IMG/VR virus record: IMGVR_UViG_3300020205_003639
Span: 1 to 37,941 of that record
Origin: a virus
Strand: one strand, 5' to 3'
DNA length: 37,941 nucleotides
Within the stretch, counting starts at the first letter, position 1. Each line of letters starts with the position of its first letter. The translations under genes and the position numbers were made by a program. Under the pieces are notes generated by a model, which was not told the origin of the DNA, made no database searches, and saw only the letters and a list, made by a program, of their open reading frames with translations. Of this stretch, positions 2,779 to 27,889 are shown in pieces.

Positions 2779-5656
2779 TTTTAAATTCGTAAATTCTGGC
2801 GAGCAATTATTCAGAAAATATCCATTTTTATCATCTGATTATGTTTGGGTTTTGCTAGAAAGCACTTATTCGCCAAGCGGGGCACATGATTTATTTGCTG
2901 ATATTTCCGCGCACGTGTGCGGCGATTCGCAATATCTACACGTCGACGCCAGCGGAAAAGCTTTTACATCTGGCGGAGACCCTGATTGCGCTAACGTTTT
3001 ATTTGCAGCAGGATGCAGCGGAAAATATATCGCTCTATTAACAAAAAGCGGCGGAGCGCCTGATAAATTAGTTGGATTTTATGACGCAAACGTTGGACAA
3101 AATGAAAATTTAGTTTTTAACGTTGCGCTAAATATTAACGCGGGCGGCCTCGCTGATTATCAGATTGAAGGGTGGACTTATGGAGCGCCTCCGCCTCCGG
3201 TTGATCCGAATGACCCGCCCCCTTCCGGCGTTGTAACTGAAACAGTTATCACGCAATTTTCACGCGCAGCTACACCGACAAGCTACCCGCTGAATTTTTG
3301 CGTGCCTTACGCCAAGGGTGTGCTTGCGAGCAATTCTACATTCGCCCTGTATGATCAAAGCAACGTTAAAAAGCGCGCTCAATTTGACGCGTTTGAGCGC
3401 TGGGAAGACACCTCAATCAAAATGCTTCACGTGTGCACCGATACATCATTTAATGCACAAAAAACTTTTACTGTAAAATCCGGTGACTCGCAAAATTTTG
3501 CGAATGCTTGCACAGTTGTTACGGCGGGCGGAAATACAACAGTAAGTTTTAACGGTAATAATTACGTTACAAATAATTCTAATTTTAGCTTTTTAAACGG
3601 TTATGAAATATTTGCAGATGATGCTTTCACTAATTTAACTTATGAAAGCACAGGCCCAGCTACTACTACAGTAGTAGAAAACGGAGAAGTAAGGTGCGTA
3701 TTAAAAAGCACAGGCTCGCTAACAAACGGCGGAACAACTTTAATTAAATACATTTTAAGACAGTATTTTTACCCGCTGTCTAGTTGCGTAGAAGTAGAAT
3801 TAACGGTTGTTGATGACAGAGCAGAACCGGATTGCATGCACGTAAATACAATCAGCCCGAGCGGCGGCGCGCTAAAATTATCTATAAAAGAATACGGATT
3901 TAAAAAAACCGGCACATACAATAGATTATTCGCAGCGGGCGAAACAGCAAATCACGATCAAACAAGCACTAGCGATCTTTTATTAAAGCAAAATGGCAAT
4001 AAAAGATGGACTAACGCGAATTTTTGGGAAGGCCACACTTTTTCATATTCCGGAATTGGTGCAGCGGCAAAAGCAAAAGGCGCGTTCAGAACATACAAAA
4101 CAAGCGGCGAACAAAACGCTTTTTGTTTTAAAAACTTTTGGCGAGAATATCCGAATCAAGTGCAAGTCGGTCAAACGGGAGAAAAAATAAGCTTTCATTT
4201 TGTTGAAGGGCAAGCACACACAACATACCCTACTTTATCGACCGAATATTTGCGCCCCAATACTTTTTATAGTCCAACAAAAGGAATGCAAAAAACAACT
4301 AACTTATTATTTGTTTTATCGTCTGTTTCAGATGCGGAATTAATAGGCATAAATGATATTTTTAATTTATATGCACCGCTCGCGCTTCCTTCGTTGGATT
4401 ACATCAGAAGCACAAAAGTTTTTGGAGATTACAAACTTTCTAATAGCGCGACAACGACTTACGACAACAGAAAAAATAACAATATTAACGCCGCATTTTT
4501 TAACGGAATTGACGGAGGAGCGCCTCTTAAAAATTCGGTCCATTATGGTTGGCGAGATTTTGGTGATAGAGCGCGTGGCGGCTGGTCAAATACTGTAAAT
4601 ACAGTACGAATTCCGGGTTTTTATAATGGAACTCATGTGGGCGCGGATAAATTTTTATTGCAATACTTGCGCGGCGGAAATGAAAAATATTATTACTTAG
4701 CAGAAATAGAAACGCACCATGGTACAGATATAGATTTATATCATTGTGCGCGTAAAGGTTATTTTATGATAAATAACACGAACACCCCGATTGATTTACC
4801 GGCGGGGGAATTGAGCGCGGCGGGACATGACATTGTTGATCATATGTCAAGGAATATGCACATGGGGCACATGCACAGCTTTGCGTCATGTTCATTTTAT
4901 CTTTTACAAAAAAATTATCGATACAAAGACACGATAGAGCAGCAGAAAAACTGGGTAAGGACATTTTGGCAAAATTTCCCGCCAACGGGTACATATCCTT
5001 TAGTGCACATCGCAAACCCTGAAAACAGGTGGTGGCAAGACGCAGAGAGGGACACTGGATGGTTTCTTTATTCCGCGTGCAAATTTGCACATACAACAAA
5101 TGATGCGTCATATTACGATTCAACAATCCAAAAAATTATTGATTTTTTAATCATTTGGATAAAGTGCACAAAAGATCATTATATTAATTCCGCGGTTGTT
5201 GGGACCCACGATTTTTCGCAAGGCACAGGATATTGGTGGTTAGATCACCAGGCAAACATCCCTTCGACCATCATCGCAACAGGGTGCGGCCCTTGGCAGT
5301 GCGGATCAATTCTTGCCGGCTTAGCTTATGCACGAGATTTATCTATCAGATTTAATAAAACGCTTCCCGCTGATTTTTACGAAATGATACGCCAAGCAAT
5401 AACATACTTGGTGCAATGGGGAAGAAATGCAAACGGGCAATGGTTATACGTTGAGGGCGCTCCCGCCGTTGATTTTGCTCATCATTTAGCGTACGGGCTT
5501 GGTTATTGGGGCAATCATTTCCAAAATACGGCATGGTACAACATGGGCGCGGCAATTCACGCGGGAACTTTGGCGCTAACCTACCAAGATTCTAACGGAT
5601 ATTATGGTTATGAAGAAATAGAATTTCCGGCTCAATTTAAAATCTTTAACACTTAA
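2765..5656 (+). CDS. Tailspike with virion-anchor domain and lyase-like fold
   Basis: 963 aa. Residues 1 to about 136 form a small beta-rich domain related in pattern to the 143-aa protein at 5852-6283 (shared FKF...GE..., 'IS...C'), probably the virion attachment domain. A proline-rich linker follows ('YGAPPPPVDPNDPPPSG'). Residues of about 157-530 look like a RIFT/beta-barrel segment, and the Trp/His/Tyr-rich C-terminal part (about 600-963) looks like an alpha/alpha toroid. The whole resembles PcRGLX/YetA-type exo-polysaccharide lyases. The probable role is to bind and degrade host surface polysaccharide. The fold assignment comes from overall pattern; catalytic residues were not identified. 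Confidence 0.65.
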   Translation: MAVSSFKFVNSGEQLFRKYPFLSSDYVWVLLESTYSPSGAHDLFADISAHVCGDSQYLHVDASGKAFTSGGDPDCANVLFAAGCSGKYIALLTKSGGAPDKLVGFYDANVGQNENLVFNVALNINAGGLADYQIEGWTYGAPPPPVDPNDPPPSGVVTETVITQFSRAATPTSYPLNFCVPYAKGVLASNSTFALYDQSNVKKRAQFDAFERWEDTSIKMLHVCTDTSFNAQKTFTVKSGDSQNFANACTVVTAGGNTTVSFNGNNYVTNNSNFSFLNGYEIFADDAFTNLTYESTGPATTTVVENGEVRCVLKSTGSLTNGGTTLIKYILRQYFYPLSSCVEVELTVVDDRAEPDCMHVNTISPSGGALKLSIKEYGFKKTGTYNRLFAAGETANHDQTSTSDLLLKQNGNKRWTNANFWEGHTFSYSGIGAAAKAKGAFRTYKTSGEQNAFCFKNFWREYPNQVQVGQTGEKISFHFVEGQAHTTYPTLSTEYLRPNTFYSPTKGMQKTTNLLFVLSSVSDAELIGINDIFNLYAPLALPSLDYIRSTKVFGDYKLSNSATTTYDNRKNNNINAAFFNGIDGGAPLKNSVHYGWRDFGDRARGGWSNTVNTVRIPGFYNGTHVGADKFLLQYLRGGNEKYYYLAEIETHHGTDIDLYHCARKGYFMINNTNTPIDLPAGELSAAGHDIVDHMSRNMHMGHMHSFASCSFYLLQKNYRYKDTIEQQKNWVRTFWQNFPPTGTYPLVHIANPENRWWQDAERDTGWFLYSACKFAHTTNDASYYDSTIQKIIDFLIIWIKCTKDHYINSAVVGTHDFSQGTGYWWLDHQANIPSTIIATGCGPWQCGSILAGLAYARDLSIRFNKTLPADFYEMIRQAITYLVQWGRNANGQWLYVEGAPAVDFAHHLAYGLGYWGNHFQNTAWYNMGAAIHAGTLALTYQDSNGYYGYEEIEFPAQFKIFNT

Positions 5657-17056: not shown

Positions 17057-17087
17057 TTTTTTTAATTAATTTTAAAAGGTATTTTTT

Positions 17088-18017
17088 ATGGCGTCAGGCG
17101 ACCAAGTCACCCTCAAGTTTATTCCGGAAGTAACTTATGGCGTTACACCTACAAATTCTAGCTTGTGGAAATATTTAAGAATTACTAGCGAAGAATTTAA
17201 AGGCGAGCCCGTTACTGAGGAATCAGAAGAATTAGCAGGCAATGAATTAGGCGTAACCGAGATAATTGTGGCGGGTCAAAACGTTTCAGGCTCTATCGGT
17301 TTCGAGCTTAGTTACCTAACGTTTGATTGGGCAATGGAAGCGGCTATAGGCGGCACGTGGGCGTCAAATATTTTAAGCAACGGCGGCGCAAAAAGATCTT
17401 TCTCTTTTGAAAAACATCTGCCAGATATTGGCCGTTATTATTTGTATAAAGGAATGGTCGTATCCGGTCTAGATATTAAAATTGAAAAAAATAAAAGAAT
17501 CACGGGAACTATTAATTTTTCAGGTGCGCAAGTAGTGACGGGAACAACGTCAAGCGTTGGAAGCGGAACAGTACAAGCAATAAACGAAAATAAAATTTTT
17601 AGAGCGGGGTCAACAATAACAGGAATACAAATTGATGATGTAGCCGCCGACACTTTTGGCGTAAGAATTTCATCATTAGATATTAATCTTGCTGTTAATT
17701 CTGAGGCGGAACAAACGATCGATAAAGATTTTGCGACGGGCATTAATATTTTATCAATCAAGCCTGAATTAAGTTTTTCAACTTATTATGACAATGATAA
17801 TTTTTACTCAAAAAGTTTAGCGGGTAGTGAATTTAAGTTTGAAATCATACTGAATGACGGCGTAGGAAATGACTATTCGTTTTTATTTCCTGCATGCCAA
17901 TTCACAGGTGGCGCACCAGCTGGAGCAAGCAAAGGTAAATCAATAATGGGCGACTTTAAAGCTGTTGGAACTGTAGATTCTGGTTTGGGTTTATATATGC
18001 AAATCACGCGCGGCTAA
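17088..18017 (+). CDS. Major tail tube protein (Phage_tube_2-like)
   Basis: 309 aa. The opening 'VTLKFIPEVTYGVTPTN' with 'LRITSEEFKGEPVTEESEEL' and 'VSGSIGFELSYLTFDW' is characteristic of phage tail tube proteins of the Phage_tube_2 type. Beta-rich throughout. It forms the tube stacked by the tape measure. Confidence 0.88.
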   Translation: MASGDQVTLKFIPEVTYGVTPTNSSLWKYLRITSEEFKGEPVTEESEELAGNELGVTEIIVAGQNVSGSIGFELSYLTFDWAMEAAIGGTWASNILSNGGAKRSFSFEKHLPDIGRYYLYKGMVVSGLDIKIEKNKRITGTINFSGAQVVTGTTSSVGSGTVQAINENKIFRAGSTITGIQIDDVAADTFGVRISSLDINLAVNSEAEQTIDKDFATGINILSIKPELSFSTYYDNDNFYSKSLAGSEFKFEIILNDGVGNDYSFLFPACQFTGGAPAGASKGKSIMGDFKAVGTVDSGLGLYMQITRG

Positions 18018-18066
18018 TAAAAAAACAAAATAAAAGTTTTAATTTAATTAATTTTAGGGTAATAAA

Positions 18067-18468
18067 ATGAAGGGTATTGATAGTTTTTATGCGGATGATG
18101 TCAAAGCAAAAAAAGAAGGGGTAAAAGTTTTTATCCCGCATCTTGATGACCAGTTTATTTTAATTTCTGCTTTTGATTCTGCAAAAATTAACGACAAAAT
18201 AAGAAAAATAAAACATAACTTTTATGATGATGTAGAAAACCCGACGCAAGAAGAAAAAGCGTTATGCTTTAAAGCCGCGCTAATTGAAGAAATAATTAAG
18301 GGGTGGAATATTTACGAAGCAGGCGAGCTTTTAGAATTTAATGAAAAGAATTTAAAGCGCATTTTTTTAGATGAAAAATATGATAGGCTTTTAGATTTCG
18401 TCTTGAGCGAAGCTCAAAATCAAGAAAATTATAAATTAAAAGAAATAGAAGACGCAAAAAAAAAGTAG
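18067..18468 (+). CDS. Tail assembly chaperone (G-like)
   Basis: 133 aa, acidic and helical, between tail tube and tape measure genes. The last codons are GCA AAA AAA AAG TAG. The heptamer A-AAA-AAG at 18459-18465, directly before the stop, is the well-known dnaX-type -1 slippery sequence. Slippage joins this protein to the frame ending at 18782, giving a 238-aa GT-type product. Confidence 0.85.
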   Translation: MKGIDSFYADDVKAKKEGVKVFIPHLDDQFILISAFDSAKINDKIRKIKHNFYDDVENPTQEEKALCFKAALIEEIIKGWNIYEAGELLEFNEKNLKRIFLDEKYDRLLDFVLSEAQNQENYKLKEIEDAKKK

Positions 18469-18782
18469 GAAAGTATTTAAAAGATTATAAAGAATGGCAC
18501 GACAAATACGCAGAAACAAGCGGTGATATGGCTGGTTATGTCGATGTTAAGGGGCATACAGAATACGCAGAAATGACGGGTAATAAGTCCAGATTATTGC
18601 TAGATATGCCCTCGCTGGAATCTAAATATTCAGATATTTATCAAGCTTTTTTATTTTTGAGATCATGCAAAAAACATGATGAGCCTATTTCAATTTTAGA
18701 GATGACAGAATATTTAAAGTATTATTTTTTTGATTTTAATTATTTTTTTAGTGTAATAAAACATTTGGACGCATACAGATAG
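18465..18782 (+). CDS. Tail chaperone frameshift extension (T-like)
   Basis: This is the -1 frame region, read as join(18067..18465, 18465..18782), adding 105 aa. It begins 'VGKYLKDYKEWHDKYAETSG' and has no ribosome binding site at its first internal ATG (18528), which supports expression only by frameshift. Its stop is directly followed by the tape measure ATG. The GT fusion normally bridges G to the tape measure during tail assembly. Confidence 0.82.
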   Translation, partial: VGKYLKDYKEWHDKYAETSGDMAGYVDVKGHTEYAEMTGNKSRLLLDMPSLESKYSDIYQAFLFLRSCKKHDEPISILEMTEYLKYYFFDFNYFFSVIKHLDAYR

Positions 18783-20570
18783 ATGAATGAAAAAGTTGGA
18801 ATAGACATTGTTGTTAATTCTTCAGGAGCTAAAAAAGAAGCTGATTTATTAACGGGCGCTTTTACAAAATTATCTGGCGTCGTCGCTGGTTTTAGTGCGG
18901 CTGATTTTATCAAAGACCAAATAATGATGGCTGATAAAATGACGGGGCTTGAACAGAGAATAAAATACACCGTTAAAAGTTTTGAAGATTTTGAAAGTGC
19001 AATGGAATCTATTTCAGAAATATCATTGAAAACCGGCGCATCACTAGAAACGACGGGCAAGCTTTTTCTCTCAGTTGCAGAAGCAGCGCAGAATATGGGG
19101 CGCTCGCAAGGCGAGGCTTTGAAATTAGTAGACACGCTACAAAAAATAAAATTAGTTTATGGAATAAACGGTGACTCATTCAATAACGCCATCCAGCAAT
19201 TAGAGCAAAGCTTAGGCGCCGGGGTATTAAATGGCGACGAATTAAAAAGCATTTTAGAAAATGCGCGACCCATCGTTTCTGAAATCGCAAAAGGCTTAGG
19301 CGTTAGCGTCGGAAATATGAAGCAGCTAGGCGCAGAAGGGAAATTGACAACCGAAAAAGTTTTTGATGCGCTATTAAAAAGAACAGAAGATATAAACAAA
19401 AGACTGAAAGACGCGCCCACTTTAATAAGCGCAGAATGGGATAAATTAAAAGCTCAAATAGATCAAACAACAATACAATTAAATAAATTTTTAGGCGTAA
19501 CAGACAAAATAGCCGGAGCTATCGCAGGAATAAGAGAAAATTTTCAATACTTGCTAGACCCTAGTAAATTTATAAAATCATTAGACACATCTTCACAAAA
19601 AAATAATGAAGGCATTTCAAAAAAACTAGGCGCAGGGATGCCAGCAAAAGATTCAGGATTGCAAGAAGCTTTTAATAAAAATATTGCTGAAGAAGAAGCA
19701 AGAAAGCGAGCAGAATATGAAGAAAAAAACCCAGAAAAATTCACTGGGCGATCTAAAAACGAATTACTAGAAAAACAAAAAGGCGAGCTAGGGATTAAGC
19801 CAGATAATCAAGAAAATTTTACAGGCACAATTGACGGGATACTAAAAGACGCGGAAGAGAAAAGAGCGCAAAAAGAAAAAATAGACGCTGATAATTTAGA
19901 GCGTGATAGAGCGCAACTTGTCGCAAAAAATGAGTCTTTTGAAGCAATTATGCTTGAGTTCGACATAAAAGAACAAAACCGCCAAGCGATGAAATACGAA
20001 TCTGATAAATATTGGAAAGATCAAACTTATCAAGACGATTTGCAGCGATTTGATAGACATCAAGAAATGGTGCAATTTATTCACGATTATGAAAAAAAAT
20101 CGACTGTACAAAAAAACCAATTTTTAAAAGCTCAATCTTTAGACTTGTTAGCGCAAGCGGGAACTTTTAGCAAAAAAGCTTTTGCAGTTAGTAAGGCTTT
20201 AAATTTAGCGGATGCCGTTGTGCAAGGTTATGGCGCGGTGCAAAAAGCATATAATGCAGCGCCTCCGCCGTATGGCTTTGCTTTAGCAGCTATCGCCGCA
20301 GCAAGAACAGCGATACAAATTAAGGGCATAAAAGCCACGCAATTTGGCGGCGGCTCTTCTTATTCTCCCGCTACAGGCGGAAGTGCTGGCGGCATTTCTG
20401 ATCGCGTCGATTCATCAAAATTGGGTGATTCTAAAATTGAAGAAAAACGCGAAAAAAATATCACCATTCAGATCGCCGAAGGGAATTTATTCAGCGCAAA
20501 ATCAGTGCGAGAATTAATAAAAGCGATCAACGAAGAAACAGGAAATAACATAACTTTAAGCGCTGCATGA
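18783..20570 (+). CDS. Tape measure protein
   Basis: 595 aa. The N-terminal ~230 residues show the tape-measure N-terminal domain: 'ADKMTGLEQRIKY', 'LSVAEAAQNMGRSQGEALKLVDTLQK', 'LEQSLGAGVLNGDELKSILENARPI' and 'GVSVGNMKQLGAEGKLTTEKVFDAL'. The middle is a charged coiled coil. A Gly/Ala-rich helical patch near 480-520 could be the membrane-active region. Its length suggests a fairly short tail. Confidence 0.9.
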   Translation: MNEKVGIDIVVNSSGAKKEADLLTGAFTKLSGVVAGFSAADFIKDQIMMADKMTGLEQRIKYTVKSFEDFESAMESISEISLKTGASLETTGKLFLSVAEAAQNMGRSQGEALKLVDTLQKIKLVYGINGDSFNNAIQQLEQSLGAGVLNGDELKSILENARPIVSEIAKGLGVSVGNMKQLGAEGKLTTEKVFDALLKRTEDINKRLKDAPTLISAEWDKLKAQIDQTTIQLNKFLGVTDKIAGAIAGIRENFQYLLDPSKFIKSLDTSSQKNNEGISKKLGAGMPAKDSGLQEAFNKNIAEEEARKRAEYEEKNPEKFTGRSKNELLEKQKGELGIKPDNQENFTGTIDGILKDAEEKRAQKEKIDADNLERDRAQLVAKNESFEAIMLEFDIKEQNRQAMKYESDKYWKDQTYQDDLQRFDRHQEMVQFIHDYEKKSTVQKNQFLKAQSLDLLAQAGTFSKKAFAVSKALNLADAVVQGYGAVQKAYNAAPPPYGFALAAIAAARTAIQIKGIKATQFGGGSSYSPATGGSAGGISDRVDSSKLGDSKIEEKREKNITIQIAEGNLFSAKSVRELIKAINEETGNNITLSAA

Positions 20571-20582
20571 TTTTTTATTATT

Positions 20583-20676
20583 AATTATTATTGCTCTCGC
20601 ATCGCGAATAAACTCGAAAATGATCAAAAAATTGAGCAAAATCCAGTTTATTCGCGGGTAGGTGCCAATAATAATT
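20583..20676. repeat. Nested long inverted repeats
   Basis: Outer arms AATTATTATTG (20583-20593) and CAATAATAATT (20666-20676); inner arms CGCGAATAAACT (20603-20614) and AGTTTATTCGCG (20645-20656); 30-nt central loop. All arms match perfectly. It fills the gap between tape measure and distal tail genes. There is no T-run, so it does not look like a simple terminator. It may be an mRNA processing or stability element, or a protein or recombination site. Confidence 0.7.
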
Positions 20677-20717
20677 TTTATTCTGTATTAATATTTTTAT
20701 TTTTTTATTGGAAAATA

Positions 20718-21443
20718 ATGGGTTCAAAATTCGGCGTCCAAAATTATTTAAGAAGCGGAACAATAACCGCCGACCCTTCACTGAGCGGATTTGGCGCAGC
20801 TAACGCGCTTGATGGACGCACAAGCACGCACGCAGGATATGGCGCAGGATCGCGCACAATATCCTTTTCTTTCGCTTCTGCGCCCGTTGGCTATATTGCC
20901 CTTGGTAAAAACAATTTTGGCGATTCTGGGGCGTCTGTGAGCGTCTATGTCGGGGGAACGTTGCGCGGCACGCATACTTTTGCAAAAAATCAGGTTTACA
21001 TGTGGACTTTTGGCACTGTAACGGCTTCTAATTGTTCTTTTGTTATTTCTGCGGGCGCTAATTTTTTTGTGTGTGATTTTGCGTGCGGCCCTGTCATTGA
21101 ATTGCCGAAATTAATGCAAGTAGGTTTTGAGCCTGCGCGATTCTCAGACGATGATGAAATCATTGCTAATTACACACTAGCCAGCGAATTAAATGGCATC
21201 TCAGTAAGAGCAAAACCGAAAAGAACGACGATAGAAATAAAAGATGTTCATTTTTCTTGGTTTGATTCTAACTTTGAAACATTTATTAAATACTCGAAAA
21301 ATTATCCATTTTATTTTTTATTCGCGCCTGACGATAGGCCGAACGACGCGCTTTATTGCTGGTTAAATAAAAGCCTTGGAAGCGTGAAATACACTAAAAG
21401 AACTTATCAAAGCATATCGTTAAACGTCGAAGGATACACTTAA
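20718..21443 (+). CDS. Distal tail-like protein with discoidin-like N-terminus
   Basis: 241 aa. Residues of about 10-120 contain 'GFGAANALDGRTST' and a beta-sandwich pattern like F5/8 type C (discoidin) carbohydrate-binding modules. The C-terminal half ('FEPARFSDDDEIIANY', 'FIKYSKNYPFYFLFAPD') looks like a tail-tip structural domain. It follows the tape measure gene, the usual place for distal tail proteins. Confidence 0.65.
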   Translation: MGSKFGVQNYLRSGTITADPSLSGFGAANALDGRTSTHAGYGAGSRTISFSFASAPVGYIALGKNNFGDSGASVSVYVGGTLRGTHTFAKNQVYMWTFGTVTASNCSFVISAGANFFVCDFACGPVIELPKLMQVGFEPARFSDDDEIIANYTLASELNGISVRAKPKRTTIEIKDVHFSWFDSNFETFIKYSKNYPFYFLFAPDDRPNDALYCWLNKSLGSVKYTKRTYQSISLNVEGYT

Positions 21444-21444
21444 A

Positions 21445-23034
21445 ATGGCGTTTTTAGACGACGCTAAAAAAGGCGGAAGGGTCGCATTAACAATAGTTGA
21501 AATAGGGCTAGATAATAAATTAAGCCCCTCTGGAGTAGAACACCATTGTGATGGACAGGTGCCTTGGGGTCAAAGGTTTTTCGCTTCTGTTTCTGCTATT
21601 GATTTTGCGCCTACAAAATTAGTTTTTTTTGACGGGCTTTCACACGTCGGCCAGGTTTCAATAAGTTTTCAGGATTTCAATTATGGCGCTGGCGATTATT
21701 TTGCGCGTCTTTTTGCGATGAATCCTTTTTACTTTAATCGTGAAATAAAAATACATACAGGATATGTTCAGGACGGATTTAATTTTGCAAATTTTAGAAC
21801 GCGTTTATATTTTATTAAAAAGATGGATTACGATTGGGAATCTAGAAAATTAAAAATAACCGCTAAAGATTTATTTTCTAAAGTTGATGAAAAAGGCGTG
21901 ACTTTCCCCGACGAAAAAAGAGGGAAATTAAAAACAGATTTATCAATTTTTAGTCCAGGCTTTTTTTTATCATCATTTGCCGGGGTTTTCCCTGATGATA
22001 TTTTTGCAGGAGATCCGGCGGGGCACTACGTTATAGATAAAGAAATAATTTTAGTAACGTCACTGATCGGCCAGCTAGTTGTTTTTAGGGCGTCGAGCGG
22101 CACGCTACTAGAAGAGCATAAAGCGGGCGCTTTAATGCGTAAAATAAAGGTTTTTAACGATAGAAACCCTATAGACGCGCTTTATGATATTTTGGCAACT
22201 AGCGCAGGATTAAGCGCGCATATAGATCAAAATGATTGGAATTATATTCGAGACACTTACACGCTGGGGGACTATTTAAACGGCGTAATTTATAACCCGC
22301 TTTCAATAAAAGCGATAACTAAAAAAATATGTGAACAATTCGCTTTAAATATTTGGTGGGATGATGAATTACAAAAATTAAAAATTCAGGCAATCGGTTA
22401 TTCTTTGTCTGAGCCAAAAAAAATTAATTGGCAAGAAAATATTTTAAATACAGGGCATAGTTATTCCGTTGATATTCAAAAAGCGGTTACGCAAACGTGG
22501 TTTTATTACGATAAAATTGACTTAACAAAAGGCGACTCTTCCGAAAATTACGGCGCGTTATATATTTATTATGACGGAAATTTAGAAGGCGAAGCGGGAC
22601 ATAGGACAACAATAATTAGAAAACTTTATTCTGATTTGGTTGGTTCTGGCGGCCTTGGTGTAGCAGTAAAAACCACGTCTAGAATTATGGCGAGGCACAA
22701 GGAAGGGTATCAAGAAATTACTTTTAGGCTTGACGCAAAGGACACGGGCTTAAATGTCGGCGATGCGGTGGAAATAACGACAGTAATTATTCAGGACGCA
22801 AACGGAAATCCACTTTTAAGAAATTTTGAAGTAATTGAAAAAGAGCAGATAAGCGATACAGTTTGGCAATATAAGGCGAGCTACGCAGGGAAAACGCTTA
22901 CAGCAAGGCTTATTACACCAAATAATATGGGAAATTACGCGGCGGAAAGCGCAGAAAATAAAATTAAATATATGTTTATTAGTAATAATTCAGGCTTGAT
23001 GAATGACGCGAGCGAAGGCGGGACAATCGTTTAA
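21445..23034 (+). CDS. Tail tip/baseplate hub-like protein, 529 aa
   Basis: Its position after the distal tail gene, its length and alternating beta/alpha composition suggest the tail hub protein ('FFDGLSHVGQVSISFQDF', 'YFIKKMDYDWESRKLKITAKDLF', 'NWQENILNTGHSYSVDIQKAVTQ', 'FRLDAKDTGLNVGDAVEITT'). The last segment resembles hub C-terminal domains. No lytic domain is seen. Ribosome binding site AAGGA. Confidence 0.7.
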   Translation: MAFLDDAKKGGRVALTIVEIGLDNKLSPSGVEHHCDGQVPWGQRFFASVSAIDFAPTKLVFFDGLSHVGQVSISFQDFNYGAGDYFARLFAMNPFYFNREIKIHTGYVQDGFNFANFRTRLYFIKKMDYDWESRKLKITAKDLFSKVDEKGVTFPDEKRGKLKTDLSIFSPGFFLSSFAGVFPDDIFAGDPAGHYVIDKEIILVTSLIGQLVVFRASSGTLLEEHKAGALMRKIKVFNDRNPIDALYDILATSAGLSAHIDQNDWNYIRDTYTLGDYLNGVIYNPLSIKAITKKICEQFALNIWWDDELQKLKIQAIGYSLSEPKKINWQENILNTGHSYSVDIQKAVTQTWFYYDKIDLTKGDSSENYGALYIYYDGNLEGEAGHRTTIIRKLYSDLVGSGGLGVAVKTTSRIMARHKEGYQEITFRLDAKDTGLNVGDAVEITTVIIQDANGNPLLRNFEVIEKEQISDTVWQYKASYAGKTLTARLITPNNMGNYAAESAENKIKYMFISNNSGLMNDASEGGTIV

Positions 23035-23074
23035 TTTTTTATTTTTTATTTTTTATTTTTTATTTTTTATTTTT
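23034..23074 (+). repeat. ATTTTTT tandem repeat
   Basis: Five perfect 7-bp units and one partial, filling the short gap between the hub gene stop and the next ribosome binding site. Probably replication slippage or an AT-rich spacer. Confidence 0.9.
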
Positions 23075-23087
23075 AAAAAGGTGATTT

Positions 23088-23270
23088 ATGTCTGACTTTC
23101 CCAAAGTTATTTATTTTCCTAATTCAAATTCTTTCCGCGTCGTTGCAGAAGATTACGAGCTGAAAGGCCAAGAACAATTTTCTAATTATGAAACTTTAAG
23201 AAGCGACATTAAAGCCGCACTTGATGATTGCGGGTTATATAGCAGGATAAGCCCTAGTTGCGGCTGCTAA
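23088..23270 (+). CDS. Small hypothetical late protein, 60 aa
   Basis: Good ribosome binding site (AAGGTGA). Soluble, ending in 'SPSCGC'. Family not recognised. Its place in the tail region suggests a minor virion or assembly protein. Confidence 0.6.
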   Translation: MSDFPKVIYFPNSNSFRVVAEDYELKGQEQFSNYETLRSDIKAALDDCGLYSRISPSCGC

Positions 23271-23374
23271 AAAACATCTTGTTTTATAGTGTATTCTGCG
23301 CAGTGTATCGCGCAACGTTACGAGTTACATTAAATAAATAAAATATTAATTATTTTTTTTTAAGGAGAATAAAA

Positions 23375-23842
23375 ATGGGCTGGGCAACAATATCAGATCA
23401 GCAAGTTGATCCTGAAAGCCCCGTTACGTCATCGCTTGTAATTGCGCTACGAGATAATCCGATTGCGATTGCAAATGCTGATGCGGGGGCACCAAGAAAT
23501 AAATTATCTTCATTAGCCGAACCGCCTGTAAAAATGTTTGAAAGCGTAAACGGTCAAAACACGTTAACGATAAATCCTTTTGCTACAACGCCTGCAAACA
23601 CGATGATTTTATTAATTTCTGTCCAGTGCGCATTTGTTGGGGAATCCGGATCGTTCGACTACTCAGTAAGAATAGACGGAAATCATTTTCAGACAGTTGT
23701 TGTCGGTACCGGCAATCCTGTTACAGCGATTAAAGTTTTGCAACAAAGCAACGCTACGCACGTGGTGACAGGATGGCTCGGCGTAGCACCAGAAAATTTT
23801 AGCGATTCGTTTAAAGTGACTGTTACAGCGTTTGCCGCGTAA
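23375..23842 (+). CDS. Tail fibre-like protein, 155 aa
   Basis: The N-terminus 'MGWATISDQQVDPESPVTSS' followed by 'LVIALRDNPIAIANADAGAP' is a common opening of phage tail or host-interaction proteins. The remainder is a small beta sandwich-like domain. It ends the late operon. Ribosome binding site AAGGAGA. Confidence 0.7.
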   Translation: MGWATISDQQVDPESPVTSSLVIALRDNPIAIANADAGAPRNKLSSLAEPPVKMFESVNGQNTLTINPFATTPANTMILLISVQCAFVGESGSFDYSVRIDGNHFQTVVVGTGNPVTAIKVLQQSNATHVVTGWLGVAPENFSDSFKVTVTAFAA

Positions 23843-23995
23843 AAACTACTGTATAAGATTTTATCGTTAAAAATAAATTTGTTGACAAAAGCACAAGAGC
23901 CTAAAAAAGATCAATAAATGACCTGATTTAGGCGATAATACATCCAGTAATGGATAGTACTGGCGGTATGGACTAGGGGCCACCAATAAAGAGAT

Positions 23996-24022
23996 GAACT
24001 ACTAAGAAATTATTAGTAGTTC
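23996..24022. terminator. Bidirectional hairpin between convergent operons
   Basis: GAACTACTAA (23996-24005) pairs perfectly with TTAGTAGTTC (24013-24022) around 7 nt. It lies between the last late gene (plus) and the XRE gene (minus), where a terminator is expected, but the T-runs are poor. The rest of 23843-24036 has small inverted repeats (e.g. CCTAAA 23900/TTTAGG 23927; ATCCA-GTAA-TGGAT 23942) and no credible gene. Confidence 0.5.
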
Positions 24023-24036
24023 GCCATTTATATGAT

Positions 24037-24207
24037 TTATTTTTGCCCCGTTTTTATCTTAAAAAGCTCCCATGTTGCGGAATCAATTTTCCTACCCCCC
24101 GCCTCGTATCGCTGCCATGTGCGCAATTGTTTTGATACTATCTCGGCTGCTTGCGTTTGAGTCAGCCCAGCGTTAAGCCGGGCTGATTTTATTGTTATTG
24201 CGTCCAT
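24037..24207 (-). CDS. Small XRE-type HTH regulator (Aca-like position)
   Basis: 56 aa. Start ATG at 24207, preceded by GGAGGAAAGGA. It is almost entirely a Cro/XRE helix-turn-helix: 'ARLNAGLTQTQAAEIVS' then 'LRTWQRYEAGGRKID' and 'WELFKIKTG'. It is the second gene of a two-gene operon behind an unknown 125-aa protein. Small HTH genes downstream of anti-CRISPR genes (aca) repress their own promoter; the palindrome inside the promoter at 24659-24675 fits this. Its base composition is visibly less AT-rich than its neighbours, hinting at transfer. It could also be an ordinary phage Cro-like regulator. Confidence 0.8.
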   Translation of the reverse strand: MDAITIKSARLNAGLTQTQAAEIVSKQLRTWQRYEAGGRKIDSATWELFKIKTGQK

Positions 24208-24230
24208 TCTTTCCTTTCCTCCGCCTTAAT

Positions 24231-24608
24231 CTAAAAAACGTATATTATCTTAGCGCCAGTTAAAATCACCTCGTTTGCGTCTTGCCCGTACTCAATCGCC
24301 CGACCTGCCACGATACATTTTTGGCCGTCGTAGATGCTAGACACGCTCATGGCCCACTCTAAGCCCTCTACAGTATCCTCGATTGTGCAATAGCTTAAGG
24401 CTATCGCGCAAGTACCGCCAAGCTTGGCGCTGGTGGCGCACCCATCCACCCAGTTTCTTGATTTTGGCGCAGCTTGCCCAACTTTTATTTTTTTTATCAT
24501 TTTGGTGTTTTTAGGGTTGGGGGTCATCGACCTAACCCCGAAAAATTGAAACCCTTCCGAGTATGCTGAGGCCATTGCTGTATTTATTGCTTCTAAATTA
24601 ATCTCCAT
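24231..24608 (-). CDS. Unknown 125-aa protein, candidate anti-CRISPR by context
   Basis: Family not recognised. Soluble, with five cysteines, beta-rich C-terminus and no catalytic motif. Strong ribosome binding site (AGGGGATG). It ends 23 nt before the XRE gene and shares its promoter. Less AT-rich than surrounding genes. An anti-CRISPR role is guilt by association only: order (unknown gene, then small HTH gene), an operator-like palindrome in the promoter, and closeness to a CRISPR-mimic RNA locus. A toxin or other accessory role is possible. Confidence 0.65.
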   Translation of the reverse strand: MEINLEAINTAMASAYSEGFQFFGVRSMTPNPKNTKMIKKIKVGQAAPKSRNWVDGCATSAKLGGTCAIALSYCTIEDTVEGLEWAMSVSSIYDGQKCIVAGRAIEYGQDANEVILTGAKIIYVF

Positions 24609-24654
24609 GACTCATCCCCTATATTTCGTTTAGATCATCTCTCTGCATGTAGTA

Positions 24655-24683
24655 ATAATACGACCATCGGTCGTACTAGTCAA
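24655..24683 (-). promoter_or_regulatory. Promoter with operator palindrome for the acr/aca-like operon
   Basis: On the minus strand TTGACT (24683-24678) and TATTAT (24660-24655) are exactly 17 nt apart. The spacer is nearly filled by the palindrome TACGACC-ATC-GGTCGTA (24659-24675). A dimeric HTH protein bound there would block the polymerase. Likely autoregulation by the 56-aa XRE protein. Confidence 0.75.
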
Positions 24684-24725
24684 CACTTTTTTTACATTTT
24701 TACAAAATATTTTTTTACATTTTAT

Positions 24726-24754
24726 TTGACACGACGACCAGAGGGCGCTAAAAT
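24726..24754 (+). promoter_or_regulatory. Consensus promoter firing toward the rep 3' end
   Basis: TTGACA (24726-24731), 17 nt, TAAAAT (24749-24754). The spacer holds CGACGACC, resembling the half-site of the neighbouring operator, and the -10 overlaps an AATACATTTGT box. No plus-strand gene follows, so the transcript is probably a small RNA running antisense into the rep 3' end. Confidence 0.6.
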
Positions 24755-24803
24755 ACATTTGTGTTCATAATGTATGCGTCGTCGTCGTCGTTTTACATTC
24801 GCC

Positions 24804-24830
24804 ACTCAGTAACCGCCAAAGTTACTGAGT
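24804..24830. ncRNA. Hairpin between promoter and rep 3' end
   Basis: ACTCAGTAAC (24804-24813) pairs perfectly with GTTACTGAGT (24821-24830) around a 7-nt loop. It lies just after the rep stop on the minus strand and inside the transcript predicted from 24726-24754 on the plus strand. A CGT triplet run (24777-24791) precedes it. It may be the rep mRNA 3' structure or part of a countertranscript. No T-run follows on either strand. Confidence 0.5.
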
Positions 24831-24844
24831 AGCACTCTTCTGAT

Positions 24845-25702
24845 TTAATGCTTCGCCTTTTCTATTCTCCGCTGTTCTCTCGCGCTTATCTCTGCAATAA
24901 GATCCTCGTAGCTCTTCTCCTTCTTTTTTTCTTCCTTCTTATTTTCTTCCAAAACATTATTTTCTTTTTTTACTATTTTCTTTTTTGTTTTTTCTTCTGT
25001 TTTGTTCATTTCATTTTTTTCTATTTTGAAATTTAAAGCCGTTACTTTTCGCCCTTCTTTTTCTTGCGTGTAGTCAACTTTAATATCACTAAAATCATTA
25101 ATCTGTTTTTTGGCTACATCAACGACGCGCCTTTTAAAATTAAAATAATCAGGGTATTCATTTTCGATTTCTAGCATGTTTTTTAGGTCTAAAATTTCAA
25201 GCGTCCTGCTTCCTATTTGTAAATTTTGTCTTAGCAGCTCGTAAAGCCTTACCGCGTGCGTACTGCTCATCTTCCCTATTTGGGAAAGACGGTAGGGCGT
25301 GAATTCCTTATCTAAATCTTTAATAAACGGCAATATTTCAGGAGCAAAAATAAGCTTAAGATGCCCAGCCGCATCAATATAACTTTGCATTGAGATCCAT
25401 CTGCTTTCTTTTATCTCTTGCTTGTTCGTCGTCCCGTCCTTTTCTCTTATTTTTACTGTGCGCAAATATAATGTTTTTAACGCCGTCTTTAACTGTTCGT
25501 AAACGCAATCTTTCCCCGTGCCGAACTGTTCAGCGAATTCGAGCGCAATAATTCTGACGGGATTAATAGCAGACAAGCCTTCGCCACTTTCTCTGCTTTT
25601 GCATATCGCGTACAAAATTATTTGCTGCTCGATTAGCGTCAGTCGATAGCTTGCCTCAACTAATCGATTACTTTTAACTACCAGATCATTCCTTTTTTTC
25701 AT
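24845..25702 (-). CDS. Plasmid replication initiator, Rep_3/RepB family
   Basis: 285 aa. The N-terminal pattern is that of Rep_3 initiators: 'VVKSNRLVEASYRLTLIEQQ' with 'IILYAICKSR', then 'WISMQSYIDAAGHLKLIFAPE', 'TPYRLSQIGKMSSTHAVRLYELL' (recognition winged helix) and 'YPDYFNFKRRVVDVAKKQIN'. The C-terminus is a charged low-complexity tail. Such proteins bind iterons to open the origin. Four iterons lie 117 bp upstream of its start. Ribosome binding site GAGGAAATT. Confidence 0.93.
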   Translation of the reverse strand: MKKRNDLVVKSNRLVEASYRLTLIEQQIILYAICKSRESGEGLSAINPVRIIALEFAEQFGTGKDCVYEQLKTALKTLYLRTVKIREKDGTTNKQEIKESRWISMQSYIDAAGHLKLIFAPEILPFIKDLDKEFTPYRLSQIGKMSSTHAVRLYELLRQNLQIGSRTLEILDLKNMLEIENEYPDYFNFKRRVVDVAKKQINDFSDIKVDYTQEKEGRKVTALNFKIEKNEMNKTEEKTKKKIVKKENNVLEENKKEEKKKEKSYEDLIAEISAREQRRIEKAKH

Positions 25703-26803: not shown

Positions 26804-27096
26804 CGACTAAAGATTCAGTTTTTACAGCAAAACCAGCAAAAAAAGAGAGCGCTTCTAGCGCTAAAAGCATTTCTATTGAAAATGTAGATACCAACGAGTG
26901 GGCTAAAACAATAGAAAAAAATCTTGCTAAAAAGCAAAAAGTTCAAAGAATTTATAGGCTAACTATGGAGATCTCGCCAAGCCTACACGCGAGAATTAAA
27001 GCACATTGCGCAGCGGGAAACAAAAAAATAAAGGAAGAGGTTACCGAGATTTTAGAGGCTCATTACGCTAAAAATAGAGTAGTTAAATTTGATTAA
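26800..27096 (+). CDS. Ribbon-helix-helix partition partner (ParG/ParB-like)
   Basis: 98 aa. A flexible basic N-terminus is followed by a C-terminal ribbon-helix-helix pattern ('YRLTMEISPSLHARIKAHCA', 'KKIKEEVTEILEAHYAKN'). Overlaps parA by 4 nt, with AAGGAG upstream. Such partners bind centromere repeats and stimulate ParA. Candidate binding repeats lie directly downstream (27085-27145). Confidence 0.85.
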   Translation: MTTKDSVFTAKPAKKESASSAKSISIENVDTNEWAKTIEKNLAKKQKVQRIYRLTMEISPSLHARIKAHCAAGNKKIKEEVTEILEAHYAKNRVVKFD

Positions 27097-27165: not shown

Positions 27166-27171
27166 TATAAT
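27166..27171 (+). promoter_or_regulatory. -10 element of the CRISPR-mimic RNA
   Basis: Perfect TATAAT preceded by a T-rich stretch. No good -35 is seen at the right distance (the best is TCAATA near 27142). Transcription would begin near 27178, where the 5' strand of a long closing stem starts. Confidence 0.55.
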
Positions 27172-27282
27172 GGATGCGCGGGGTGGGCGATCTCGTGCAC
27201 AGAGATACAGCGAAGCGCTTTTTGTGTGGCCATAAATTCTGATAGCAAAAACTTGGTGCAAATCCAAGAGAAATCCACCCCG

Positions 27283-27370
27283 CTTTACTGCTGCACAAGC
27301 AGCTTAGAAAGCCGAAGATGTCGGTTTTTCCGACAAGTTCACGTTCACTGCGCGCGCAGTCAGCTTCTAT
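27283..27370 (+). CRISPR. Type I-F-like mini-array: 28-32-28
   Basis: Repeat 1 (27283-27310) has stem CTGCT-GCACA-AGCAG and then CTTAGAAA, the type I-F crRNA 5' handle. Compared with the usual I-F repeat (…CTGCC…GGCAG CTTAGAAA), the C-G pair at the top of the stem became T-A, so pairing is kept. By eye it matches 24 of 28 positions. Spacer 27311-27342 is exactly 32 nt, the I-F norm. Repeat 2 (27343-27370) begins GTTCACTGC, has a CTGCGC/GCGCAG self-complementary stem and a decayed 3' end (CAGCTTCTAT), as terminal repeats often do. The period is exactly 60. Confidence 0.88.
27319..27335 (+). other. Hairpin inside the I-F-like spacer
   Basis: TGTCGG (27319-27324) pairs perfectly with CCGACA (27330-27335) around TTTTT. 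The spacer would fold on itself rather than stay available as a guide. Confidence 0.85.
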
Positions 27371-27459
27371 AGTTCCCCGCTTATGTGGGGATGTTCCGCC
27401 TTCAGATTATGACTATATTCATTTATAGTCACGTTCCCCGCGCAAGCGGGGATTGCTTA
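27370..27459 (+). CRISPR. Type I-E-like mini-array: 29-32-29
   Basis: Repeat 1 (27370-27398) carries GTTCCCCGC, stem CCCCGC-TTAT-GTGGGG (one G-U pair) and the 3' handle-like ATGTTCCG, compared with the I-E handle ATGAACCG/ATAAACCG. Spacer 27399-27430 is 32 nt. Repeat 2 (27431-27459) has a perfect stem CCCCGC-GCAA-GCGGGG with a GNRA-type loop and a decayed end. The period is exactly 61, the I-E norm. It abuts the I-F-like unit without a gap. Confidence 0.88.
27410..27431 (+). other. Hairpin inside the I-E-like spacer
   Basis: TGACTATA (27410-27417) pairs perfectly over 8 bp with TATAGTCA (27424-27431) around TTCATT. As in the other unit, the spacer is self-complementary. Confidence 0.88.
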
Positions 27460-27470
27460 CAATAAAACAT

Positions 27471-27668
27471 TTAACAATTATTTAAATATTCTTGAGCCTT
27501 TCTTTTTGATACTCTCACCGCTTTTCTTGTTCCGTATAGCGAAAAATCTATTTTATTTTTCATTAAAAATTCAACCTGCCTTGTTTTTTTGCTATATCCG
27601 GTCAGCTTCTGGAGGTCGTCATCGCTTAAAAAGACATCAAATACATCATCGTGCATAGCGCTACCCAT
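27471..27668 (-). CDS. DUF4224-like small protein, copy B
   Basis: 65 aa, AGGAG upstream. Contains 'FLSDDDLQKLTGYSKKTRQV' and 'VRVSKRKAQEYL', a pattern close to DUF4224 (LS..EL..LTGY....Q...L...GI). Paralogue of the next gene. Its stop lies 12 nt from the last I-E-like repeat, in convergent orientation. The biochemical role of the family is unknown to me. Confidence 0.8.
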   Translation of the reverse strand: MGSAMHDDVFDVFLSDDDLQKLTGYSKKTRQVEFLMKNKIDFSLYGTRKAVRVSKRKAQEYLNNC

Positions 27669-27685
27669 ATTGTATGCTCCTAAAA

Positions 27686-27889
27686 TTATTCTGTCTTTTG
27701 ATTGAAGTTTTTATCTAAAAACTCTTGAGCTATCTTTTTAGATACTTTCGGCGTTTTTCGGTACCCGCCGACAATGTACGGGATGCCTAATTCTTGCAAT
27801 TTTTCGCACTGTTTGTGCTTCTGCTTGTATCCCGTCAAAAATTCAAGCTCTTCACTGCTCAAATAATCGTCAAATTTTAACCCCGTCAT
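27686..27889 (-). CDS. DUF4224-like small protein, copy A
   Basis: 67 aa, AAGGAG upstream. 'YLSSEELEFLTGYKQKHKQC', 'EKLQELGIPYIVGGYRKTPK' and 'SKKIAQEFLDK' give a clearer DUF4224-type pattern. Lies 17 nt upstream of its paralogue in the same operon. Possibly a small DNA-binding protein, from size and charge. Confidence 0.82.
   Translation of the reverse strand: MTGLKFDDYLSSEELEFLTGYKQKHKQCEKLQELGIPYIVGGYRKTPKVSKKIAQEFLDKNFNQKTE

Follow-up and report, generated by a model that had tools for sequence, protein, structure and literature searches.

A candidate RNA anti-CRISPR combining type I-F and type I-E repeat mimics in a cas-less phage-plasmid

The 37.9-kb virus record IMGVR_UViG_3300020205_003639 (37,941 nucleotides, analysed over its whole length and hereafter called the window) carries, within a short stretch, sequences that resemble the repeats of two CRISPR subtypes, which raises the question of what such repeats do in a virus that has no cas gene. 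A first-pass annotation had described at positions 27283–27461 a 28-32-28 repeat-spacer-repeat unit of type I-F directly abutting a 29-32-29 unit of type I-E, and had proposed a dual decoy. We suggest that the locus is probably one small non-coding RNA gene (approximately 27178–27460) whose product works as a composite RNA anti-CRISPR directed at both type I-F and type I-E systems and that, judging from the sequences available for comparison, this composite form of RNA anti-CRISPR is most likely new.

Genomic setting of the locus

The record ends in a 99-bp direct repeat at its termini, and the element is therefore considered to be circular. Protein profile scans identified terminase, portal, capsid and tape measure genes in the window, as well as a Rep_3/RepM initiator and a ParA partition ATPase; since phage structural genes and replication/partition genes occur together, the element can reasonably be called a phage-plasmid. 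No cas gene was found among the 56 proteins (open reading frame list and PADLOC, Pfam, NCBIfam and PHROGs scans), and the only two Cas-named PADLOC matches, Cas12k (E = 0.008) and Csn2 (E = 0.009), were dismissed as noise, so that the earlier description of a cas-less phage-plasmid is confirmed. The locus is intergenic, being located between the gene of a 98-amino-acid ParA partner, which follows parA and ends at 27096, and a convergent DUF4224/excisionase-like gene (27471–27668, minus strand). The latter is one of two adjoining small DUF4224/excisionase-like genes (27471–27889, minus strand), apparently paralogous and convergent with the RNA. The GC content at 27178–27460 is 50%, against 35.5% in the whole window and 21% in the 80 bases upstream, a contrast that an RNA gene would be expected to show in an AT-rich genome.

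The nearest phage, G001 (L005), shows approximately 88% nucleotide identity over window positions 17065–24907, which comprise much of the structural module, whereas its replication region differs and has neither ParA nor the decoy locus. Because G001 shares the structural module without the locus, the decoy appears to travel with the replication/partition part. From position 24907 onward a module swap relative to G001 was observed, in which only the window side has RepM/ParA and the decoy RNA. Sequence searches retrieved no relatives of the locus, and relatives sought via RepB, the ParA partner and ParA yielded nothing useful. The plasmid and RepM matches point to Gammaproteobacteria, in which type I-F and type I-E systems are both common.

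Repeat mimics and their arrangement

The window was searched with Rfam and with two covariance models of our own, R1, built from 40 I-E repeats of viral and bacterial contigs, and R2, built from 20 I-F repeats; both were run with filters off, and their E-values, obtained from short calibrations, are rough. R1 is conservative, since its repeats were selected with a strict pattern. The tandem I-F and I-E mimics were recovered where the first-pass annotation had placed them, three of the four repeats being detected by covariance models, far beyond chance, and the periods are exactly 60 and 61 nt, as it had also claimed.

The first I-F repeat mimic (27283–27310, plus strand) is matched by Rfam CRISPR-DR4 (RF01317; 39.9 bits with a gathering threshold of 35, E = 6.5e-6 for the whole window) and by R2 (43.3 bits, E = 2.2e-10, with no other match below E = 2.5). 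Its 8-nt handle CTTAGAAA is intact (27303–27310), which places the predicted Cas6f cut after 27302. It is followed by the 32 nt of pseudo-spacer 1 (TGTCGG-TTTTT-CCGACA, 27311–27342, plus strand) and by a degenerate terminal I-F repeat (27343–27370, plus strand) that escapes both Rfam and R2. We nevertheless count this second copy as real, because nine exact bases, GTTCACTGC, unique in the window, lie in perfect register exactly 60 nt after the first copy, and because a hairpin with a 5-bp stem and a 4-nt loop is present (ACTGC-GCGC-GCAGT, 27347–27360). Past GTTCACTGC the copy has diverged, CTTCTATA replaces the handle, and the hairpin, deviating from the Cas6f consensus, may stay uncut by Cas6f. 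The 28-32-28 description thus holds for the first repeat, the 32 nt and the period of 60, and should otherwise read as repeat, 32 nt and degenerate terminal repeat, given the divergence of a second copy that the models do not detect.

The first I-E repeat mimic (27370–27398, plus strand, stem CCCCGC/GUGGGG) scores 32.7 bits with R1 (E = 1.3e-9) and carries the handle ATGTTCCG at 27391–27398, with a predicted Cas6e cut after 27390. Beyond the 32 nt of pseudo-spacer 2 (GACTATA-TTCATT-TATAGTC, 27399–27430, plus strand), the terminal I-E repeat (27431–27459, plus strand) is detected by R1 at 27435–27453 (22.2 bits, E = 1.1e-5); its hairpin CCCCGC-GCAA-GCGGGG (27436–27451) is intact exactly 61 nt beyond the first copy, and its handle is lost. 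Of the 29-32-29 unit, a full first repeat and the hairpin of the second therefore stand, and the handle of the second does not. By coordinate arithmetic, a cut after 27451 would release a 61-nt I-E crRNA-like product (27391–27451). Each half of the locus is laid out like a single crRNA unit, with handle, 32 nt and hairpin; only the terminal copies have lost their handles, and neither unit requires these. This layout, the self-folding spacers and the structured 5′ domain described below go beyond what had first been noticed.

Among the I-E repeats that we collected, only a minority carry the handle ATGTTCCG. The I-E stem-plus-handle pattern also occurs in bacterial genomes, several of which have multiple copies at multiples of approximately 61 nt. 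On chromosomes, I-E repeats that carry ATGTTCCG come mostly from Actinobacteria; these were considered and rejected as evidence of the host, because the phage is AT-rich and has gammaproteobacterial plasmid proteins. Given this minority handle and the degenerate terminal I-F repeat, invisible to the I-F model, one half may be inactive in a given host, and both features would suit a decoy directed against one system only, the other half being a decayed remnant or an RNA stabiliser. We regard such a one-sided function as quite unlikely, as the first I-F and the first I-E repeat are both strong, with intact handles, and two structured 32-nt bodies would be unexpected of a remnant.

The pairing-preserving stem changes that the first-pass annotation had read as a sign of selection on RNA structure are present (C-G to T-A relative to the I-F consensus, and a G-U pair in I-E), as differences of a single sequence from a consensus and not as covariation. 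A further possibility is that the locus works at the DNA level, for instance as a partition centromere or an operator, and that the resemblance of its palindromes to CRISPR repeats is fortuitous. In favour of this, parA and the 98-amino-acid partner gene lie immediately upstream, and partition sites are often palindromic. However, the match spans whole repeats, including handles and exact periods, the G-U pair of the first I-E stem keeps the pairing in RNA and breaks the symmetry in DNA, and the locus has the GC content of an RNA gene, at 50% compared with 21% upstream of it, which makes a partition site a very improbable reading. As RNA, the whole segment folds much more stably than shuffled sequence (z −5.45), and pairing between the two I-E hairpins is possible when it is folded at full length, as in any array with palindromic repeats.

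Self-folding bodies and the 5′ domain

Both pseudo-spacers are self-complementary. Pseudo-spacer 1 folds with −12.1 kcal/mol (z −3.7), and for pseudo-spacer 2 a z of −4.6 was obtained over 27399–27432. When compared with 312 spacers from arrays of at least five hairpins in the same viral and bacterial loci, each of the two folds better for its composition than 311, a single array spacer folding as well in either case, and the joint chance of two such structured spacers is approximately 1e-5, if they are independent. Viral mini-units in general show no more than a marginal tendency towards structured spacers (z < −2 in 4 of 41, compared with 9 of 312 array spacers, p = 0.05). A search of 50,697 phage records, not exhaustive, returned no credible protospacer for either pseudo-spacer, and in the window, in its nearest relative G001 and in 3 Mb of loci the best matches were no better than those of shuffled controls.

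These results bear on whether the locus is rather a pair of one-spacer CRISPR mini-arrays, borrowing the host I-F and I-E machinery against competing phages or plasmids. Virus-borne mini-arrays that play such a part have been documented (PMC11656645, citing Medvedeva et al. 2019); they have repeats identical to those of the host, and most of their spacers target related viruses. The locus is like them in being short and cas-less and in its natural spacing, and real crRNAs could be made from it, given its 60- and 61-nt periods, its 32-nt bodies and the intact handles of the first copies. In contrast to them, the repeats within each pair are unequal, the second ones lacking handles, and no match to a mobile element was found for the spacers in the phage records and other sequences searched. 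Self-folding bodies of a kind seen in so few array spacers, together with the absence of a credible protospacer in those sequences, argue against a targeting mini-array, which we deem unlikely, and for a decoy.

The decoy gene seems to begin well before its first repeat: the interval in the first-pass annotation is correct as far as it goes, and the feature extends upstream of it, to about 27178. A −10 box, TATAAT, is predicted from reading of the sequence at 27166–27171 (plus strand), perfect in itself and accompanied by a weak −35, and is missing from the promoter-scan list because the −35 fails; transcription would start near 27178. A perfect 9-bp helix (27178–27186 with 27275–27283) begins at this predicted start and closes a structured 5′ domain (27178–27283, plus strand; folding z −2.4 over 27177–27283); the helix ends at 27283, the base at which the I-F repeat begins. 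At the other end, no intrinsic terminator was found after the locus on the plus strand.

Inside the 5′ domain there is a T-arm-like hairpin (CTTGG-TGCAAAT-CCAAG, 27252–27268), for which only one of 176 upstream segments tested, L183, has a comparable motif. In L183 (715–908, minus strand) a solitary I-F repeat directly follows a tRNA-like structure with a perfect acceptor helix and a T-arm, interrupted by approximately 117 nt and found only with an intron search and a relaxed threshold. A tRNA, or an intron-bearing tRNA, was rejected for the 5′ domain of the window, where ARAGORN at default settings reported none with or without introns; relaxed settings gave noise in many segments. A cobalamin riboswitch, suggested by the motifs GGTGCAAATCC and CCCCGC shared by eye, was likewise rejected, as RF00174 gave no match at E ≤ 10 in a search that was positive in control genomes.

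Proposed action and comparison with other loci

Cas6f binds and cuts the phage-encoded I-F repeat mimic RacrIF1, which associates with Cas6f/Cas7f, nucleates a Cas6f-Cas7f filament without Cas5f and Cas8f, and prevents Cascade from assembling; the viral I-E repeat mimics RacrIE1 and RacrIE2 inhibit a P. aeruginosa I-E system, and a non-targeting crRNA alone lowers interference (PMC10651486). The locus shares with RacrIF1 and other I-F Racrs a phage-encoded, intergenic I-F mimic without cas genes, whose hairpin and handle are of the kind used by Cas6f, and differs from these solitary repeats in its handle, 32 nt and hairpin unit, its self-folding body and the joined I-E unit. With RacrIE1 and RacrIE2 it has a viral I-E repeat mimic in common, but its I-E unit comes after an I-F unit on what is predicted to be a single transcript. 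The locus therefore mimics, in sequence and structure, repeats of known subtypes (Rfam and our own covariance models) and lies between genes on a mobile element that has no cas genes. It is not a solitary repeat unit in the sense of SRUFinder, and we class it as a Racr-like variant, outside the original definition of a Racr, because further hairpins lie 60 and 61 nt away. The SRUFinder search dropped tandem matches, that is, repeats with neighbours within 100 bp (PMC10651486), a filter that would explain why the design is absent from the published catalogue.

The dual RNA decoy proposed at first pass is the best explanation of a locus that is intergenic, cas-less, equipped with two intact first handles and without a found target, all obtained by computation together with the repeats, their spacing and the self-folding bodies, although the completeness of the units had been overstated. 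The course of transcription, processing, assembly and inhibition that we infer would be as follows. The transcript would begin with the closed, stable 5′ domain; in a I-F host, Cas6f would bind the first hairpin and cut after 27302, and in a I-E host Cas6e would cut after 27390 and 27451. The products would be crRNA-like decoys (5′ handle, 32-nt body and 3′ hairpin) and a Cas6f-bound upstream product, and the decoys would occupy Cas6 and Cascade subunits. As each 32-nt body is self-folding and has no known match, the resulting complexes would find no target and real crRNAs would be outcompeted; the effect could come from the upstream product, as in RacrIF1, or from complete guide-blocked crRNA units. 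Tentatively, and with some doubt, we propose that one transcript presents a decoy for two subtypes with the guide region as a hairpin, so that Cascades assemble on RNA unable to pair with DNA; inhibition by guide self-folding is a mode not described in the literature cited here. If working in this manner, one short RNA would block two Cascade types and be the RNA counterpart of AcrIE4-F7, a fused protein that acts on Cas8 and is aimed at I-E and I-F (PMC8887544); the pair of target systems addressed by one phage product is the same, and, one being a protein and the other an RNA, this is an analogy only. It would also widen the Racr class, defined on solitary repeats, to decoys that resemble an entire crRNA, and the self-folding bodies suggest a simple and testable way in which a phage might employ complete crRNA units and yet target nothing.

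We surveyed IMG/VR for similar loci and obtained 93 stretches with I-F repeats and at least 120 with I-E repeats; variant stems were missed, since exact patterns for the commonest stems were used. The exact design, two hairpins at the natural period with the last handle lost, is present in five I-F and at least ten I-E loci, including the repeat-spacer-hairpin units of L130 and L156 (I-F) and of L215 and L326 (I-E). A complete repeat-spacer-hairpin unit is therefore not unusual in itself, contrary to the first impression, since single-subtype units of the same design recur. They share with the window a full repeat with handle, the natural period and a handle-less terminal hairpin, terminal handle loss being common among them, and differ from it in having one subtype and, mostly, unstructured spacers. 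L215 (1938–2034, minus strand), an I-E unit with a hairpin spacer (z −5.2) and a handle-less terminal repeat followed by a terminator-like hairpin, is, among the loci listed, the closest parallel to the I-E half. Besides solitary repeats, clusters of two to four mimics are common in these IMG/VR loci (L120–L210 and L211–L330), often with a spacing of 40–50 nt in place of 60/61 and often ending in a handle-less hairpin; the published solitary-repeat filter would exclude them.

The joining of two subtypes, which had also been called unusual, was indeed found nowhere else: among the matches listed from IMG/VR, no I-F locus had a nearby I-E repeat and no I-E locus a nearby I-F repeat, and the open-licence literature gave no report of a two-subtype RNA anti-CRISPR. 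On these sequence comparisons, two subtypes in one compact locus are unique within the collections searched, metagenome contigs not being among them. A looser I-F plus I-E pattern retrieved 72 stretches, mostly terminators or coding sequence and none with credible handles, the window scoring 16 of 21 and the next best 8; a string match to both subtypes in L002 lies inside a coding region and was set aside as chance. The nearest case to the joining seen in the window is L252, which has five tandem I-E-like hairpins at a spacing of approximately 49–50 nt (2450–2675) and, approximately 1.9 kb from this block, a separate I-F hairpin with a truncated handle (4597–4625). The presence of two subtypes in one phage is thus not unique, as L252 carries both in separate loci.
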